The notes: generated by a model not told the origin, from the letters alone. 64,000 bases of DNA from Bacteroidota bacterium (GCA_947479755.1 CANKAM010000001.1:1-64000); one strand, 5' to 3'. Positions 49,890-58,933 are shown, numbered from the stretch's first letter. A program made the numbers and translations.

Positions 49890-49897
49890 TACTTTTG
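49890..49897 (+). promoter_or_regulatory. Promoter -7 box of the choice-of-anchor-L gene
   Basis: TACTTTTG fits TAnnTTTG and lies 30 nt before the ATG at 49928. It also argues against any start upstream of 49928. No clear -33 TTG. Confidence 0.5.
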
Positions 49898-49927
49898 GCT
49901 TTTGCCAATGAAAATTGTATTTATAGA

Positions 49928-51553
49928 ATGAAGAAAATCCTCCTCTCAATTGCTTTCTTGCTTTCATTAAACTCAGGTTTTGCCCAACTTACAGTAAATG
50001 GTTCATTAACTCCCCTGCAGTTAGTGCAAAGCATATTAATAGGCAATGGTGTTTCTGTTAGTAACGTTACTTATACTGGAGCTCCTGCAGCAATAGGATC
50101 TTTTAATGGTACCGCCAGTAACATTGGCATAGCAAGCGGAATATTACTGACAACCGGAAATCTGACAAATGCAGTAGGTCCTAATAATTTGGGTGGTCAG
50201 GGTATTGATAACAACCGCTCAGGTGATGCAGACTTAAACATAATTTCCGGGGTTACCACTTTTGATGCTTCTGTGCTTGAGTTTGATTTTGTTCCGGCTT
50301 CAGATACGTTGAGATTTAATTATGTTTTTGCATCAGAGGAATACCCTGAATTTGTGGGTGGTTTGGTAAATGATGCATTCGGTTTTTTTATTTCCGGTCC
50401 TGGGATTTCCGGACCTTTTTCTAGTAATTCTCAAAACGTAGCTATTATTCCCGGAACAACAACTCCTGTAACTATTAATGATTTGAATAATGGCGACAAT
50501 GATTGTGATCTCGGAGGTCCAAACGGACCCTGTTCAAACTGCCAGTATTATGTGGATAACTGCAATGGTTCAACCGTTCAATACGATGGTTTTACAACTC
50601 CATTAACTGCTATGGCAGTGGTGGCGTGCGGTGAAACGTATCACATAAAAATTGCAATTGCTGATGGCGGTGATGGTGTTTATGACTCGGGAGTTTTTCT
50701 TGAAGCAGGAAGTTTCGGAACATCAGGGGTTCAGATTACAGCCACAGCTTCTGCATCGGGTGATTCAACAATTGTTGAAGGCTGCGGTTCAGCGGTATTT
50801 ACCTTTTTTCGTCCTGATACAAGTTCGGCTTTTACTATTAATTTTAACATACAAGGCACAGCAATACCGGGTTTAGATTACAACCAAATACCAGACAGCA
50901 TTGTAATTCCTCAAGGACAATTCAGCGAGCAGCTATTTGTAGATGCTTTTGTCGATGGCATTCCTGACAGCATTGAAACAATTACACTTACCATTGATTT
51001 CATTAGTGGTTGCGGAGGTGATACTCTTTATGCAACTATCTTTATTCAGAGTGTTGACTCAATTAAAGTGGTTAAAGGAGAAGATTATAATATCTGCACA
51101 CCTGACGAGACCGCAACGCTTAAAGCAACTGCAACAGGAGGCAGCGGACCACTTACATTTACCTGGAGCAATGATGCAGGTGTTGGCGATTCAGTAGTAG
51201 TTGTTCCGCTTGAAACAACCAAGTATTTTGTAACCGTTACCGATACGTGCGGCAATTTCGCTTACTCCGATTCTATTGAAGTGGTAGTGCAATGCGATGT
51301 AATTGTTCCAAACATATTTACACCTAACGGTGATGGGTTTAACGACACTTTTTTTGTAGGAAACTTAGACCAGTATCCCGGTAGCGGAATAAAAATTTAC
51401 AATCGATGGGGACGTAAAGTTCATGATACCGATGATTACAAAAATGATTGGGATGGTGAAAAAGTTGCCGAAGGAACCTACTTTTATGTTCTCTCAGTTT
51501 CAGATCCTGAGCAAGGCGAAAAAAAAGGACACGTTACCATTTTAAAAAATTAA
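49928..51553 (+). CDS. Choice-of-anchor-L protein with T9SS type B (gliding-motility-associated) C-terminal domain
   Basis: The protein has 541 residues from ATG 49928, which gives MKKILLSIAFLLSLNSGFAQ as signal peptide. About 30-270 is the choice-of-anchor-L domain (LLTTGNLTNAVGPNNLGGQG, YVFASEEYPEFVGGLVNDAF). About 270-365 looks Calx-beta-like, then an Ig/PKD-like domain (ATATGGSGPLTFTWSND). The end is the type B sorting domain (VPNIFTPNGDGFNDTFFVGN, IKIYNRWGRKV, GTYFYVLSV). It is exported by T9SS and either secreted or held at the surface. It is followed after 10 bp by a small exported protein. Confidence 0.9.
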   Translation: MKKILLSIAFLLSLNSGFAQLTVNGSLTPLQLVQSILIGNGVSVSNVTYTGAPAAIGSFNGTASNIGIASGILLTTGNLTNAVGPNNLGGQGIDNNRSGDADLNIISGVTTFDASVLEFDFVPASDTLRFNYVFASEEYPEFVGGLVNDAFGFFISGPGISGPFSSNSQNVAIIPGTTTPVTINDLNNGDNDCDLGGPNGPCSNCQYYVDNCNGSTVQYDGFTTPLTAMAVVACGETYHIKIAIADGGDGVYDSGVFLEAGSFGTSGVQITATASASGDSTIVEGCGSAVFTFFRPDTSSAFTINFNIQGTAIPGLDYNQIPDSIVIPQGQFSEQLFVDAFVDGIPDSIETITLTIDFISGCGGDTLYATIFIQSVDSIKVVKGEDYNICTPDETATLKATATGGSGPLTFTWSNDAGVGDSVVVVPLETTKYFVTVTDTCGNFAYSDSIEVVVQCDVIVPNIFTPNGDGFNDTFFVGNLDQYPGSGIKIYNRWGRKVHDTDDYKNDWDGEKVAEGTYFYVLSVSDPEQGEKKGHVTILKN

Positions 51554-52183: not shown

Positions 52184-52260
52184 CCTTCTAATCTGCGGTA
52201 AGAGCACTACCGAGTTCTCGCTAACCTTCTAATCTCCGGTAAGGGCATTGACGAGTACTC
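52184..52260. repeat. Two 36-bp direct repeats, period 41 bp
   Basis: Copies at 52184-52219 and 52225-52260 share CCTTCTAATCT.CGGTAAG.GCA and end CGAGT.CTC. They lie in the 256-bp gap before the DUF4856 operon, well upstream of its promoter. Confidence 0.7.
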
Positions 52261-52335: not shown

Positions 52336-52366
52336 TTGCACACCCCTTAAGTCAAACCTACTTTTG
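52336..52366 (+). promoter_or_regulatory. Promoter of the DUF4856-imelysin-HTTM-TonB operon
   Basis: TTG (52336-52338), a 20-bp spacer and TACTTTTG (52359-52366) match the consensus, giving a leader of roughly 38 nt. No Fur box could be identified by eye. Confidence 0.7.
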
Positions 52367-52410
52367 TCCTCGTTATTTAAAATCATTCTAAACAAAAGAT
52401 ATAAACCCTA

Positions 52411-53499
52411 ATGAAAAATATATTTTCTCTTACACAATTCGCTGTACTTGCCGCTTGTCTTGTTCTTGTTCAATCCTGCAAACCCGATGATGACGGACCG
52501 CAGTATGAAATTCCTACTACTTACAACTTTGTTAATGTAAATTATTCTGGACAAACTTTCCGCCTTTCAATGCTTGAAGAAATGGTTGATTACATGAAAA
52601 CAGCTCGCACGCAGGGAACCACATTGAGTTCAGCAACTCTGAAGAATATGTTTGCCAACAATGGTTCACCCTTTAGTGATGTCACGTTAAATAATTCAGG
52701 AAAGCAATTGAAAGATAAATGCTACGCTGGAGATCAATCACTGATTGAATCATTTATAGACAGCGTTGCCTTGGCAAGCCAGTCAGTTACTGAAGGCAGC
52801 AACGGTGTTGCAGGAATTGTAACCAGTTCTGTTTACCCGGATAAAAAATATGTATTGAGTGCCAATGGGTTTGATTATACTGAAATGATTGAAAAAAGTA
52901 CAATGGGCGGTGTGTATTATTATCAGGCAGTAAGCAATTATCTTGAAAATATTTCGGAGGATGACAATAATACAATAACTACTGGAGAAGGCACAGAAAT
53001 GGAGCACCATTTTGATGAAGCCTTCGGTTATTTTGGTGTGCCTGTTGATTTTCCAACCAATAATACAGATGTTTTGTTTTGGGGAGAATATTGTAACGAT
53101 TTGAACGCTGTTTTGGGTAGTAATTCAAAAATGATGAATGCTTTTCTAGCAGGCAGAGCAGCAATTTCAAATAAGGATTATACCACCCGTGACGAAAAAA
53201 TAAATTTCATTCGTGAAAACTGGGATCAATTAATTGCTGCTGCTGCAATTCACGAAATAAACGAATCAATCGAATATTTTGGTGATGATGCTTTGCGTAA
53301 CCATACACTGTCAGAGTTTCTTGGTTTTTTACATTCATTAAAGTATAACCTGAACGCTAAAATTACGACAACTCAAATTGATGAAATTGCCTCACATATT
53401 GGCAACAGCCTTTATAACGTTACACTTAATGATTTGAATGCTGCAAAAAACGCGCTCAGTTCTATTTATGGTTTAGATGATATAAAAGACACACTTTAA
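52411..53499 (+). CDS. DUF4856 lipoprotein
   Basis: The protein has 362 residues. The signal sequence ends in the lipobox LVQSC (Cys23), followed by KPDDDGP, an acidic stretch typical of Bacteroidota surface lipoproteins. The remainder matches the DUF4856 pattern (TTYNFVNVNYSGQTFRLSML, HHFDEAFGYFGVP, AAIHEINESIEYFG). It is mostly helical, with His and acidic pairs that could bind metal. The family has no established function but is regularly found beside imelysin-like proteins. Its stop overlaps the next start by 1 nt (TAATG), so translation is coupled. Confidence 0.88.
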   Translation: MKNIFSLTQFAVLAACLVLVQSCKPDDDGPQYEIPTTYNFVNVNYSGQTFRLSMLEEMVDYMKTARTQGTTLSSATLKNMFANNGSPFSDVTLNNSGKQLKDKCYAGDQSLIESFIDSVALASQSVTEGSNGVAGIVTSSVYPDKKYVLSANGFDYTEMIEKSTMGGVYYYQAVSNYLENISEDDNNTITTGEGTEMEHHFDEAFGYFGVPVDFPTNNTDVLFWGEYCNDLNAVLGSNSKMMNAFLAGRAAISNKDYTTRDEKINFIRENWDQLIAAAAIHEINESIEYFGDDALRNHTLSEFLGFLHSLKYNLNAKITTTQIDEIASHIGNSLYNVTLNDLNAAKNALSSIYGLDDIKDTL

Positions 53500-54620
53500 T
53501 GAAACTAAAACACATTTTAACTAACACTATTCAATCCTGCCTTATAACGGGATTGCTCGTTTTTCCTTCCTGTAATCCCGAAGAAAATACGAATGTGAAT
53601 TTTGACCGTGCTGCAATGCTCGAAAACATTGGCAGCAATATTATTATTCCTGCTTATACCGACTTATCTGATAACATGAATTTACTGCAACAGGCTGCAA
53701 ACGATTTTACAACAGCACCAGATAATTTAAAGCTGACAACACTTCAAACAACATTTAAGAATGCTTATTTATCATGGCAAAAATGTTCTGCTTTTGAATT
53801 TGGTCCGGCTATGCAGGTTTCGTTGCGCATGAGTGTAAATACTTTTCCAACGGATACCACTCAAATTCAAACCAACATTAATTCAGGTTCTTATAATCTG
53901 GAAGCAGCCAATAACATTGATGCCCGTGGCTTTCCTGCTCTTGATTATCTGTTACACAAGCGCATTGAAAACAATACGGATGTATTGGAACGATTTACAA
54001 CAAACCCTGAGGCGCAGGCATGGAAAGATTATTTGGCTGCCTTGGTAAACGACACCAAAAACCTTGTTGATACTGTGAAAAATAGCTGGGAACCAACATC
54101 AGGAAATTACCTTGACACTTTTAGCAGCAATGATGGAACAGATGTAGGAAGTTCTTTAGGTGAATTGGTAAACCAGCTCAATTACGATTATGAACAATTG
54201 AAAAATGCACGCATCGGAATTCCTGCCGGTAAGCAAACATTAGGCGTTGCACTTCCCGAGAAATGTGAAGCATATTATGCAGGATATTCAGTTGAATTGG
54301 CATTAGAACACATCAACGGAATAAAAAATTTGTACCTCGGAGCAGGTGATGCAGATGGATTAGGACTGGACGAGTATTTAATTGCCCTAGATGCAAAACA
54401 CGGAAGCGGACAACTTTCAGATGCAATTAAAACTCAGTTAGACCTTGCCATTGCTGCTTTGCAGAATGTTCCCGACCCTTTATCTGAAACAGTTGTAAGT
54501 AATCAGACTATTGTAAACACTGCTTACACCGAAATTCAGAAAGGTGTGGTTTTGCTAAAAACTGATATGCCTTCGGCACTCAGCGTTTTAATTACTTATC
54601 AGGATGGTGATGGTGATTGA
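53499..54620 (+). CDS. Imelysin-like (M75/EfeO-related) lipoprotein with a degenerate GxHxxE motif
   Basis: The protein has 373 residues with a lipobox near LLVFPSC (Cys25). The fold is that of imelysin: two helical bundles, seen from FKNAYLSWQKCSAFEFGPAM and, in the second half, AYYAGYSVELALEHINGIKN. The family's metal-linked GxHxxE site is GFPALDYLLH (144-153) here, with Pro for His and Asp for Glu. It may therefore bind iron differently or not at all, or belong to a distinct subgroup. Imelysins are iron-regulated envelope proteins. It is coupled to the genes on both sides (1-nt and 17-nt overlaps). Confidence 0.88.
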   Translation: MKLKHILTNTIQSCLITGLLVFPSCNPEENTNVNFDRAAMLENIGSNIIIPAYTDLSDNMNLLQQAANDFTTAPDNLKLTTLQTTFKNAYLSWQKCSAFEFGPAMQVSLRMSVNTFPTDTTQIQTNINSGSYNLEAANNIDARGFPALDYLLHKRIENNTDVLERFTTNPEAQAWKDYLAALVNDTKNLVDTVKNSWEPTSGNYLDTFSSNDGTDVGSSLGELVNQLNYDYEQLKNARIGIPAGKQTLGVALPEKCEAYYAGYSVELALEHINGIKNLYLGAGDADGLGLDEYLIALDAKHGSGQLSDAIKTQLDLAIAALQNVPDPLSETVVSNQTIVNTAYTEIQKGVVLLKTDMPSALSVLITYQDGDGD

Positions 54621-56004
54621 TAGCGTAAAGAAATATTTTGCTTCCACCATGCACATAGCCCCGCTGGCAGTGTTTCGCGTTGTTTTTGGAGGAATGATGT
54701 TTGCCTCTGTTATTCGATTCTGGCTTAACGGATGGATTGAAACACAATACATTTTACCAAAACTGTTTTTCCCATTTTATGGTTTTGAATGGATAAAGTC
54801 GTTGAGCGAAACAGGTATGTATGCAGTATTTGCGCTGATGGCAATTGCTGCACTGTTTGTTATGTTGGGCTTATTTTACAGGTTTTCATCAATCGCTTTT
54901 TTTCTTCTGTTTACCTACGTTGAACTGATTGATAAGAGCAATTATCTCAATCATTATTACTTTGTAAGTATTGTTTCTTTACTGCTTGTGTTGGTTCCTG
55001 CCAACCGCTATTTTTCATTGGATGTTTTGCGTAAGCCATCTCTGTTGGTAACTCAAATTCCAAGTTGGATGGTGGACATTTTTAAACTGCAATTAGGCAT
55101 TGTTTATTTTTTTGCAGGCATCGCAAAGCTTAACTACGATTGGCTTTTCCGCGCCATGCCGCTTGCCATCTGGCTGCCTGCAAAATCTAATCTTCCTTTA
55201 GTTGGCGAGTTGTTGAATTACAAGTTCACGGCTTATGTGTTCAGTTGGTTTGGTGCTTTGTATGATATTCTGATTCCGTTTTTTCTTTTTAATAAGTGCA
55301 CAAGAAATGTTGCATACATTTTTGTCATTATTTTTCATGTTGCAACCGCAATCATTTTGCCTGTAATTGGCATGTTCCCTTACATTATGATTTTGGTGAC
55401 ACTGATTTTTTTCTCGCCTGAATTTCACAAGAAACTTATTCAACGGATTGTTGAATTATTTTCTTTTGGTAAAAAAAATCTTCTTAATCATCGTCAGGAT
55501 ATTAGCTTTTCATTTTCCCGTCCGCTTATCGGAAAGGTGTTGATTGCAGCATTGTGTCTGCATTTCGTCTTTCAACTTTTTCTGCCTTTTCGTTACCTGC
55601 TTTATCCCGGAAATCTTTTTTGGACAGAACAGGGTTACCGTTTTTCATGGCGTGTAATGCTTATGGAAAAAGGTGGCACTGCTTTTTTCTACGTGAAAGA
55701 TGCTACAACAGGAAAGGAAAGTGAAGTGGATAACTCACATTATTTAACGCACCAGCAGCAGAAAATGCTTTCAACTCAACCCGACATGATTCTGCAGTTT
55801 GCACATTTTCTTGCTGCAGACTATGAGAAGAAGGGTTATGTAAATCCGAAAGTTAGAGTTGAAAGTTTTGTAACGCTGAATGGCAGTGGCAGCAAACCCT
55901 TTATTAATAGTTCAGTTGATTTGACAAAAGTGAAAGAATGTTTTGCTTCAAAAAAATGGGTACTACCTTTTGAAGAAACCAAGTTGGGTTACTCAGAGAG
56001 ATGA
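54604..56004 (+). CDS. HTTM-domain membrane protein (vitamin-K-dependent carboxylase-like)
   Basis: The protein has 466 residues and about seven or eight membrane helices in the first 350. The segment LIDKSNYLNHYYF corresponds to the LDKTxWNNHxYL motif of vitamin-K-dependent gamma-glutamyl carboxylase. Lys111 aligns with the proposed catalytic base and His117 is kept. A second region, GYRFSWRVMLMEKGGTAFFY, is also conserved in HTTM proteins, and a soluble domain ends the protein. Bacterial members are mostly uncharacterised. It overlaps the imelysin gene by 17 nt and the TonB receptor gene by 4 nt (ATGA). Confidence 0.85.
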   Translation: MVMVIDSVKKYFASTMHIAPLAVFRVVFGGMMFASVIRFWLNGWIETQYILPKLFFPFYGFEWIKSLSETGMYAVFALMAIAALFVMLGLFYRFSSIAFFLLFTYVELIDKSNYLNHYYFVSIVSLLLVLVPANRYFSLDVLRKPSLLVTQIPSWMVDIFKLQLGIVYFFAGIAKLNYDWLFRAMPLAIWLPAKSNLPLVGELLNYKFTAYVFSWFGALYDILIPFFLFNKCTRNVAYIFVIIFHVATAIILPVIGMFPYIMILVTLIFFSPEFHKKLIQRIVELFSFGKKNLLNHRQDISFSFSRPLIGKVLIAALCLHFVFQLFLPFRYLLYPGNLFWTEQGYRFSWRVMLMEKGGTAFFYVKDATTGKESEVDNSHYLTHQQQKMLSTQPDMILQFAHFLAADYEKKGYVNPKVRVESFVTLNGSGSKPFINSSVDLTKVKECFASKKWVLPFEETKLGYSER

Positions 56005-58466
56005 AGTTGGGCAGGTTCTTATTTTTTATAATTCTCTATTCTGCATTTTGCATTTTGCATTCGTTTGCCCAGCCGGCACCTTTGCCTGATAACGAATTTC
56101 ATGCAGCAGGCTCGGTTTACGGTATTATAACTGACAAACAAACTGGCGAACCTCTATATCTGGCTGAGGTTTTATTGAATAATTCTTCGCGCTCAATTCG
56201 CAGTGACGAAAAAGGAAAATATCATCTGCGTCATTTAAGTTACGGCAGTCACAAGTTGATTTATTTTGCTTATGGCTACGAAAAAGTGGAGCGATACATT
56301 GATATCAAAGACGAAAAATTAGAAATCAATATAGAATTAGAGCCATTGGTGCGTGAACTGAATGACGTTGTTGTGATAAATGAAAAGGAAAATGACTTTG
56401 GTATTACACGATTGAAACCTGTTGACGGAATGGCTATTTATGCAGGTAAAAAATCTGAAGTTATTATGTTAGATGATGTGGCTGCAAACCTTGCCACTAA
56501 TAACAGTCGTCAGGTTTTTGCAAAAGTTGCCGGGTTAAATATTTGGGAAAGCGATGGAGCTGGTTTGCAGATAGGAATTGGCGGGCGAGGGTTAAGTCCT
56601 AATCGTACATCTAATTTTAATACCCGCCAAAACGGATATGATATCAGTGCAGATGCGTTGGGCTATCCCGAAAGTTATTACTCACCACCAACCGAAGCAT
56701 TGGAAAAAATTGAAGTTGTTCGTGGTGCGGCATCATTGCAATATGGAACACAGTTTGGCGGCTTCATCAATTTTGTTTTCAAAAAGCCAAATCCAACTAA
56801 AGCATTTGAAGCAGTGTTGCGACAAACTGCCGGTTCTTTTGGTTTGTTTAATTCGTTCAACAGCATCAGCGGAACAAAAGGTAAGGTTGGATATTACGCC
56901 TACTATCAGTTTAAACGCGGTGATGGCTGGAGGCCTAATTCGGGTTTCAATAATCATGCTGCTCACGCTTCGGTTGTTTTTCACGCTAATAAAAAATTAT
57001 CGTTTACGCTGGAGCATACATATATGCACTACCTCGCGCAACAACCCGGTGGACTTACCGATGCAGCATTTGCGCAAGACCCTCGACAATCTATTCGTGA
57101 ACGCAACTGGTTTCGCGTGAACTGGAATTTAACTGCACTGATGGTGGATTATAAATTCAACGAGCGATTAAAACTAAACAGCCGTTTTTTTGGGTTGATT
57201 GCTGACCGTGCTGCTCTTGGTTTTCTCGGGCTTATCAGCAGAGCAGACCCAATGGAAGAGCGTGATTTGCTTTGGGATAAATACCAGAACTTCGGAAATG
57301 AAACTCGCATTATGTATGGCTATAACCTGTTTGGGAATCACAGCACATTTCTTGCAGGTGTTCGTTATTATCAAGGATATACCGACCGTAAGCAAGGTCT
57401 TGGAAACAATGGAAGCGATGCTGATTTCTATTACCTGCATCCGGATAGTTTAGAGCATTCTGCATACACTTTTCCTAGCAGAAACATTTCTGTTTTTGCT
57501 GAAAATATTTTTGCAATTACTTCTGAGTTCAGCGTAACACCCGGTGTGCGTTATGAATATATCAGCACATCTTCAGACGGATATTTCAATCTGGAAAATA
57601 AAGACCTTGCAGGAAATGTGATTTACAGCGAACACACAATTGATAAACGAAATCGTTCACGCAATTTTGTTTTGCTTGGAGTAGGAGCGAGCTATAAACC
57701 GTCAAGCAGCCTTGAATTTTACGGAAATTTTTCTCAAAACTATCGCGCTATTACGTTCAGCGATATGCGTATTGTAAATCCCAATTTTCGTGTTGACCCC
57801 AATTTGCAGGACGAAAAAGGATACAGCACCGACCTTGGTGTTCGCGGAAACATAAACAGAATGCTCAACTTTGATGTGAGCCTGTTTATGATTTCTTATA
57901 ACAATCGTATTGGTGCTGATCTGCGTTTGGATAGTAATACCTATGTTGTTTACCGTTACCGCACCAATATTGCAGATTCGCGCAACATGGGAGTTGAAGT
58001 TTTTGCTGAACTTGATTTGCTTAAACTATTTTCAAGTACAAAATCAAAATCTATGCTTTCGGTGTTTACCAATTGCTCATTTATTAATGCACATTATTTT
58101 AATAGCAGCGAGGCTGCTTTCAATGATAAAAAGGTGGAACTGGTTCCAGCATTTACCAATAAATCAGGCATCACTTTCAAGCGCAAAAATTTTCAGGCTA
58201 CTTATCAGTTTTCTTATACAGGTAAACAATTCAGTGATGCCACCAATGCAGAGTTTAGCGCAAACGGAGTTTACGGAATCATTCCTGCTTATTATGTGAT
58301 GGATTTTTCTGTAAACTATTCATGGAAATTACTCAGTTTCTCAGGTGGATTAAACAACATAGCCAACAATAAATATTTTACACGCAGGGCAGAAAGCTAT
58401 CCCGGCCCCGGAATTATTCCTTCAGATGGAAGGAGTTTTTATATCACAGTTGGTCTGAAACTGTAA
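56001..58466 (+). CDS. TonB-dependent receptor, iron/siderophore (FecA-like) type
   Basis: The protein has 821 residues. A signal peptide (...LHSFAQ) is followed by a carboxypeptidase-regulatory-like domain (about 35-115: VYGIITDKQTGEPLYLAEVL). The plug is about 130-260, with LNIWESDGAGLQIGIGGRGL and VVRGAASLQYGTQFGGFINF, the arrangement typical of ferric-citrate-type receptors. A barrel ends in SFYITVGLKL. It is the last gene of a four-gene coupled operon, and its receptor type supports metal uptake as the operon's job; the ligand itself is not readable. Confidence 0.92.
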   Translation: MKLGRFLFFIILYSAFCILHSFAQPAPLPDNEFHAAGSVYGIITDKQTGEPLYLAEVLLNNSSRSIRSDEKGKYHLRHLSYGSHKLIYFAYGYEKVERYIDIKDEKLEINIELEPLVRELNDVVVINEKENDFGITRLKPVDGMAIYAGKKSEVIMLDDVAANLATNNSRQVFAKVAGLNIWESDGAGLQIGIGGRGLSPNRTSNFNTRQNGYDISADALGYPESYYSPPTEALEKIEVVRGAASLQYGTQFGGFINFVFKKPNPTKAFEAVLRQTAGSFGLFNSFNSISGTKGKVGYYAYYQFKRGDGWRPNSGFNNHAAHASVVFHANKKLSFTLEHTYMHYLAQQPGGLTDAAFAQDPRQSIRERNWFRVNWNLTALMVDYKFNERLKLNSRFFGLIADRAALGFLGLISRADPMEERDLLWDKYQNFGNETRIMYGYNLFGNHSTFLAGVRYYQGYTDRKQGLGNNGSDADFYYLHPDSLEHSAYTFPSRNISVFAENIFAITSEFSVTPGVRYEYISTSSDGYFNLENKDLAGNVIYSEHTIDKRNRSRNFVLLGVGASYKPSSSLEFYGNFSQNYRAITFSDMRIVNPNFRVDPNLQDEKGYSTDLGVRGNINRMLNFDVSLFMISYNNRIGADLRLDSNTYVVYRYRTNIADSRNMGVEVFAELDLLKLFSSTKSKSMLSVFTNCSFINAHYFNSSEAAFNDKKVELVPAFTNKSGITFKRKNFQATYQFSYTGKQFSDATNAEFSANGVYGIIPAYYVMDFSVNYSWKLLSFSGGLNNIANNKYFTRRAESYPGPGIIPSDGRSFYITVGLKL

Positions 58467-58487: not shown

Positions 58488-58495
58488 TATCTTTG
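58488..58495 (+). promoter_or_regulatory. Promoter -7 box of the thioesterase gene
   Basis: TATCTTTG fits TAnnTTTG and lies 18 nt before the ATG at 58514. An apparent upstream TTG start at 58493 falls inside this box and is rejected. Confidence 0.5.
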
Positions 58496-58513
58496 CGCAC
58501 TTATTCTAAAATT

Positions 58514-58933
58514 ATGATACCTCCATATAAACACCACGCTGCAATACAAATACGTTTTTGTGATACCGATTCACTGGGACATGTAAACAACTCCAACTAC
58601 CTTTCTTATATGGAACTTGCGCGTATCAGCTATATTGATAAAGTTTTCGGCAACACAATTAACTGGAATACTGATGGTGTTATTCTTGCCAAAGCCGTGG
58701 TTGATTTCAAATTGCCCGTAATGTTGCACGATAAACTTTTTGTTTACATCCGCACCTCGCGTTTGGGCACAAAGAGTTTTGATATAGAATATCTTTTTGT
58801 GCGTGACGTTAATGGCGAAAACGAAATTGTTTCTTCGGGTTCAACAGTAATGGTTGCCTACAATTATGCAAACAATAAAACCATTGAAATTCTACCCGAG
58901 TGGAGAAAACGATTGGAGGAGTTTGAAAAATAA
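58514..58933 (+). CDS. Acyl-CoA thioesterase, hotdog fold (4HBT type)
   Basis: The protein has 139 residues from ATG 58514. IRFCDTDSLGHVNNSNYLSY is the 4-hydroxybenzoyl-CoA thioesterase motif with the catalytic Asp in DTDSLGHVNN, followed by YMELARISYIDKV and the hotdog strands DFKLPVMLHDKLFVYIRTSR. The likely reaction is hydrolysis of an acyl-CoA; chain preference is unknown. It converges on the FadL-like gene with stops directly adjacent. Confidence 0.9.
   Translation: MIPPYKHHAAIQIRFCDTDSLGHVNNSNYLSYMELARISYIDKVFGNTINWNTDGVILAKAVVDFKLPVMLHDKLFVYIRTSRLGTKSFDIEYLFVRDVNGENEIVSSGSTVMVAYNYANNKTIEILPEWRKRLEEFEK

Follow-up and report, generated by a model that had tools for sequence, protein, structure and literature searches.

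Genes and features of the locus

A stretch of 64,000 nucleotides from a Bacteroidota bacterium (GCA_947479755.1, CANKAM010000001.1:1-64000), here called the window, contained a four-gene operon at 52336-58466 (Table 1). The genes encode, in this order, a DUF4856 lipoprotein, an imelysin-like lipoprotein, a homologue of vitamin-K-dependent gamma-carboxylase (VKGC) and a TonB-dependent receptor. An earlier note on this DNA had described the open reading frames as overlapping by 1, 17 and 4 nt behind a single good promoter, and this arrangement was found as described. The promoter matches the -33/-7 consensus of Bacteroidota. A putative operator falls downstream of the -7 element, ahead of the start codon. 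The last gene product, previously called a FecA-type receptor, has the domains of a TonB receptor, but the FecA label is loose: its NCBIfam matches to the TonB-siderophore (1e-36) and FecA (4.5e-28) families were both far under the family cut-offs.

Table 1. Features of the operon and their positions in the window
Feature	Position	Strand	Details and basis
Operon of DUF4856 lipoprotein, imelysin-like lipoprotein, HTTM/VKGC enzyme and TonB receptor	52336-58466	+	Reading of open reading frames
Bacteroidota-type promoter	52336-52366	+	TTG 52336-52338, 20-nt spacer, TACTTTTG 52359-52366; predicted from sequence
Fur-box-like palindromic operator (putative)	52373-52395	.	TTATTTAAAATCATTCTAAACAA; de novo conservation and match to published Riemerella Fur box
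DUF4856 lipoprotein	52411-53499	+	PF16148 5e-42; lipobox Cys23, acidic residues after Cys
Imelysin-like lipoprotein	53499-54620	+	PF09375 (Peptidase_M75/imelysin) 9e-38; AlphaFold2 (AF2) model folded like 4ecg (E 1e-11); lipobox Cys25; GFPALD in place of GxHxxE
Codons of C-terminal D-G-D-G-D and stop, candidate modification or recognition site	54603-54620	+	Tail peptide LLKTDMPSALSVLITYQDGDGD; tail conservation
VKGC homologue (HTTM and lumenal domain), predicted inner-membrane menaquinol-dependent carboxylase/epoxidase	54604-56004	+	Pfam, GGCX alignment, residue mapping
N116 and H117 codons, equivalent to GGCX N159 and H160 (Glu-pocket residues)	54949-54954	+	Invariant in 159/159 homologues; roles from PMC12589487
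K175 codon, equivalent to GGCX K218 (catalytic base)	55126-55128	+	Invariant in 159/159 homologues; role from PMC12589487
TonB-dependent receptor with carboxypeptidase-regulatory-like N-terminal domain	56001-58466	+	Pfam, barrel 1.5e-30

Conservation of the cassette across Bacteroidota

Gene order was compared in two samples. The first was made up of the genome collection's 80 closest relatives, which include Pontibacter, Mucilaginibacter, Pedobacter, Hymenobacter, Spirosoma, Aequorivita and Fodinibius. The second comprised 297 genomes of the phylum picked independently of similarity. A few genomes were common to both (for example L040/L143, L063/L133, L079/L151 and L073/L149), so that counts pooled over both samples contain some repeats.

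All four genes were present in this order and on one strand in 73 of the 80 closest relatives. The phylum sample held 80 VKGC homologues in 70 genomes, the window's own included, and the cassette surrounded 61 of the 79 others. Within these 61 cassettes, DUF4856 was detected in 56, imelysin in 60 (including one fragment at the end of a contig) and the receptor in 61, its gene adjoining that of the VKGC homologue every time. Recurrence on this scale exceeds chance and bears out the proposal that the genes belong together. Co-occurrence across Bacteroidota, which the earlier note had suggested as a check, pointed the same way: DUF4856 turned up in 50 of the 297 genomes, 46 of which also carried VKGC, against 4 with DUF4856 only and 24 with VKGC only (Fisher p = 2e-31, uncorrected for phylogeny). 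M75 imelysin was detected in just 2 of 40 genomes without VKGC. The four genes are a co-inherited, phylum-wide unit.

The cassette enzymes formed one clade (support 0.94), which also took in one solitary copy, L157/L195. The remaining 17 VKGC homologues fell outside it, and at least 8 of them adjoined ribF and serS. Recurrent flanking genes (metabolic genes, a LuxR-type regulator, LysE and others) were functionally mixed and lineage-specific, with none shared between lineages, and were therefore placed outside the cassette. Two loci in genomes lacking VKGC carried DUF4856 in other surroundings. At L191:8275-9459, in a genome also without a COX1 match, the gene came after a putative zinc peptidase gene and a pair of the SusC/SusD type. 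At L193:8703-12579, a TonB receptor gene preceded by one Fur-box-like site was followed by DUF4856 and a flavin amine oxidoreductase-like gene.

Fur-box-like operator and iron response

The operator belongs to a 23-bp palindrome with the consensus TTATTTAGAnTnAnTCTAAATAA, which was found upstream of the first gene of the cassette in 122 of 136 loci, frequently in two copies, compared with about 1 in shuffled sequence. No strong site of this kind was found around standalone VKGC homologues. The palindrome agrees with the Fur box described in Riemerella anatipestifer, ATTTAGAATTATTCTAAAT (PMC5609570). In Table 4 of that study, RAYM_09779-09794 are annotated as a TonB receptor, a vitamin-K-dependent gamma-carboxylase, an imelysin lipoprotein and a hypothetical protein, a set that resembles the cassette by annotation and order. 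These genes were induced 2.1-3.1-fold on iron restriction, and the effect of fur deletion in iron-rich medium was weaker, with ratios of 1.4-1.9. They appear as table entries only; the carboxylase is not discussed and no function is proposed for it (PMC5609570). The operator and the published response of the like-annotated genes support the iron link made in the earlier note, and the best reading of the cassette, as judged from its upstream sequence, is that it is controlled by Fur and iron-responsive.

Only five sites with at most two mismatches were present in the window genome: the cassette operator and four others, located before sufA-sufB, before a TonB receptor gene, before a gene for a LuxR-type response regulator, and between genes for a cytochrome c and an extracytoplasmic function (ECF) sigma factor. 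A three-mismatch site lay 5' of an Mrp/NUBPL iron-sulphur (Fe-S) gene; when the pattern was reversed as a control, the total number of hits at up to three mismatches was about the same, so such sites alone are no evidence. The LuxR-type regulator gene (L205:1531-2190) stands behind a perfect site, and its product shares 41% identity with that of L048:4933-5586, a regulator whose gene immediately precedes the cassette in other genomes.

Sites in front of separate loci such as suf would also fit plain co-regulation, in which iron-stress genes that act independently lie on a single Fur-controlled transcript, with no joint mechanism. With order and strand fixed over many lineages, and with DUF4856 and imelysin rare outside VKGC genomes, this explanation is highly improbable.

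Active site of the VKGC homologue and quinone supply

The enzyme matched HTTM (PF05090, 2e-76) and VKGC_lumenal_dom (PF22777, 6e-56) in Pfam and aligned with human GGCX over residues 19-456 (E ~1e-41). Homology thus spans both domains and reaches beyond HTTM alone, which upholds the earlier description of the protein as a carboxylase relative. Residue roles in GGCX were taken from a cryo-EM study (PMC12589487), with whose numbering the human letters recovered in the alignment agree. Conservation was counted over 159 bacterial homologues, of which 141 were cassette enzymes.

Besides the catalytic base and the Glu-pocket residues, the equivalents of W223, F286 and F299 were invariant, that of G259 was kept in all but one homologue, and that of A214 was invariant in the cassette enzymes. 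Most of the quinone pocket is kept. The equivalent of Y395 is Y345 in the window enzyme and was Tyr in 118 and Phe in 23 of the cassette set. The earlier note had pointed to Lys111 and His117 as the kept motif residues and had treated Lys111 as catalytic. Both are present in LIDKSNYLNHYYF, aligned to LLDKTSWNNHSYL of human GGCX, and His117 corresponds to the Glu-pocket residue H160, but Lys111 corresponds to K154, a structural residue that hydrogen-bonds D442/Q446 of the lumenal domain (PMC12589487), and was kept in 129/141 cassette enzymes. The catalytic base is K175. No HTTM gene of the operon lacked the catalytic Lys, a loss that the earlier note would have counted against its model: the K218 equivalent was present in 141/141 cassette enzymes.

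Comparison with GGCX also revealed losses. The propeptide exosite residues (Y425, R436), the C99-C450 disulfide and the C-terminal, propeptide-binding second lobe were not kept, and the arch domain is likewise missing. On the substrate side, K217 is replaced by Ala or Ser, N158 by Leu and M401 by Val. These differences indicate that substrate recognition has changed, whereas the core chemistry appears to be retained. Unlike GGCX, it is encoded beside a TonB receptor and lipoproteins. The same substitutions and the loss of the exosite would suit an enzyme that keeps quinol epoxidation or oxygenase chemistry without carboxylation and oxidises or alters the tail, the receptor or a small ligand; a Leptospira homologue reportedly has altered activity (so Rishavy in 2005). 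N159 and H160, which hold the substrate carboxylate, are retained, as mostly is Y395, and such a non-carboxylating enzyme is judged improbable.

A second class of VKGC homologues, encoded between ribF and serS (L144, L147, L152, L155, L162, L163 and similar loci), retained K218, N159 and H160, had His at the Y395 position and showed no Fur-box-like site nearby.

The presence of menaquinone, which had been assumed for the host as a member of Bacteroidota, is supported by two MqnA/D-type genes of the futalosine route. The search for menA was negative and menB fell below the cut-off; the futalosine genes account for menaquinone. As an aerobic marker, COX1 was near-universal (286 of 297 genomes) and offered little contrast.

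The partner lipoproteins and the C-terminal tail

The imelysin-like protein shares with the M75 imelysins ICMP, IrpA and EfeO/EfeM the Pfam family, the predicted fold, the lipoprotein character and the link to iron. It differs from them in its VKGC partner, in its invariant C-terminal DGD and in GFPALD in place of GxHxxE, a change that makes canonical iron binding unlikely. Pro occupied the His position of this motif in 118 of 137 cassette imelysins. No EfeB/DUF1111 peroxidase was found among the recurrent neighbours of the cassette.

Exactly D-G-D ended 136 of the 137 cassette imelysins, and the last carried one extra residue. Position -5 was Asp, or Ser in one group of 17, and position -20 was Lys in nearly all. 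The pattern [D/S]xDGD contained the only invariant acidic positions of the protein. The tail was absent from seven imelysins outside the cassette position; among duplicates, a tandem copy in L033 had it and a copy in L056 did not. No other protein ending in DxDGD was found in the window genome, where two further pattern matches both lay away from a protein end. Tail conservation is not a by-product of gene overlap, since the genes do not overlap at the imelysin end in 94 of 136 loci. Several enzyme columns differed with Asp or Ser at -5, but the trait is clade-linked and was not taken as evidence. In the AF2 model the last helix stops at residue 361 and the terminal residues have low confidence, which is compatible with a flexible arm.

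The invariant final residue, reminiscent of C-terminal recognition signals, and the ever-adjoining receptor gene could also mean that the tail is a docking handle for the receptor, the enzyme or surface export, with the enzyme acting elsewhere. As the protein that bears the tail is inherited together with an enzyme that modifies proteins, and the seven imelysins outside the cassette position have no tail, a pure docking role is considered quite improbable.

The DUF4856 lipoprotein was invariant at G153, K162, D202, Y227, A251 and E302 (74 sequences). Its AF2 model was confident (pLDDT 94) and had no significant fold match in the PDB or a viral library, and may thus represent an undescribed fold; the family is unmentioned in the openly licensed literature. 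The earlier note had proposed that the enzyme gamma-carboxylates Glu of DUF4856 and/or imelysin, the resulting gamma-carboxyglutamate (Gla) binding metal for the receptor. The VKGC family naturally acts on Glu, the GGCX-type carboxylate pocket is conserved, E302 is invariant, and locus L084 has the enzyme and DUF4856 with no imelysin. A Glu-rich, Gla-like metal site was nevertheless not supported. Neither lipoprotein had a conserved Glu cluster: E302 was the sole invariant Glu column of DUF4856, the best of imelysin was E257 (92%), and the conserved Glu are isolated in helical, confidently modelled parts. With the propeptide-exosite residues and C-terminal GGCX domains missing as well, the Gla model is regarded as unlikely.

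The lipobox Cys was conserved in both lipoproteins. At least two acidic residues at +2 to +7 after it were present in 87/122 and 60/137 sequences, respectively, with about 20 expected each. Such residues resemble the surface-export signal of Bacteroidota. HmuY-HmuR and similar pairs likewise combine a Fur-controlled TonB receptor with lipoproteins bearing acidic residues after Cys, but the lipoprotein families differ and the cassette additionally encodes a membrane carboxylase homologue. In Tenacibaculum, four lipoproteins of imelysin type occur in abundance in outer-membrane vesicles, as does a FecA homologue (PMC10288586).

Proposed role of the cassette

From the operon, its phylum-wide co-conservation, the catalytic and carboxylate-pocket residues, the Fur-box-like operator and the invariance of the tail, we tentatively favour the view that the cassette serves iron uptake under Fur control and that its carboxylase uses menaquinol to modify a partner lipoprotein, with the acidic C-terminal tail as the likeliest site. 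That the VKGC homologue acts on a partner surface protein is probable. The steps that we infer, namely topology, carboxylation, target, ligand and transport, would be as follows. The cassette would form a Fur-repressed, iron-responsive outer-membrane uptake system, its TonB receptor importing a species of iron or of another metal, helped by the two lipoproteins. The VKGC homologue would be an inner-membrane protein whose active site faces the periplasm, would use menaquinol, O2 and CO2 like GGCX, and would modify the partner lipoprotein en route to the outer membrane. The likeliest target would be the flexible, invariant acidic imelysin tail, ...[D/S]xDGD-COOH. A flexible acidic chain end could gain access to an active site buried in the membrane, and the beta carbon of Asp is in principle open to carboxylation; beta-carboxylation of a tail Asp, for example, would give a malonate-like hard-metal ligand. 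The narrower version, in which the enzyme carboxylates or otherwise oxidises Asp, not Glu, in the DGD tail to produce a metal-binding tip for TonB-dependent iron uptake, is rather unlikely.

Several points weigh against the favoured explanation. The substrate of the human enzyme is Glu, yet the acidic residues of the tail are Asp only, and their invariance could stem from docking to the receptor or enzyme instead of modification. The openly licensed literature yielded no demonstration of any modification, and the Riemerella genes are equated with the cassette by annotation and gene order only. VKOR (PF07884), considered as a cassette partner, was rejected: it was not found in the genome and showed no correlation across the 297 genomes, so that any epoxide formed would have to be made good by fresh synthesis or be reduced by some other enzyme. 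Finally, the enzyme was kept without a nearby imelysin at L065, L084, L165 and L195. Two of these loci come from named metagenome bins and one from an 84% complete genome, so their imelysin gene could be elsewhere or absent, but such loci make it less certain that the tail is the sole substrate.

Vitamin-K-dependent protein carboxylation is best known in animals, and the human enzyme activates clotting factors. To our knowledge, the role of the bacterial VKGC homologues is unsettled. The cassette enzymes constitute a large conserved bacterial clade with catalytic and carboxylate-binding residues, fixed partners, an operator predicted to respond to iron and a candidate substrate that is short and invariant, and these features open the question to direct test in culturable species. 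If correct, the favoured explanation would amount to prokaryotic menaquinol-dependent protein carboxylation, a new post-translational modification in bacterial iron acquisition that would give vitamin-K chemistry a new role in iron uptake and menaquinone a use outside respiration.

Neighbouring features

A 4HBT-type thioesterase gene (58493-58933) lies 26 nt 3' of the receptor gene; it was dismissed as a cassette member because, among the 80 close relatives, it adjoins the cassette only in the nearest one, L031. Just upstream of the region, 49895-51553 encodes a product that bears a CHU_C type IX secretion signal domain. Between the gene upstream and the operon promoter sit two copies of a 23-bp repeat, CCTTCTAATCT(G/C)CGGTAAG(A/G)GCA, at 52184-52206 and 52225-52247, 41 bp apart and the only ones in the window.

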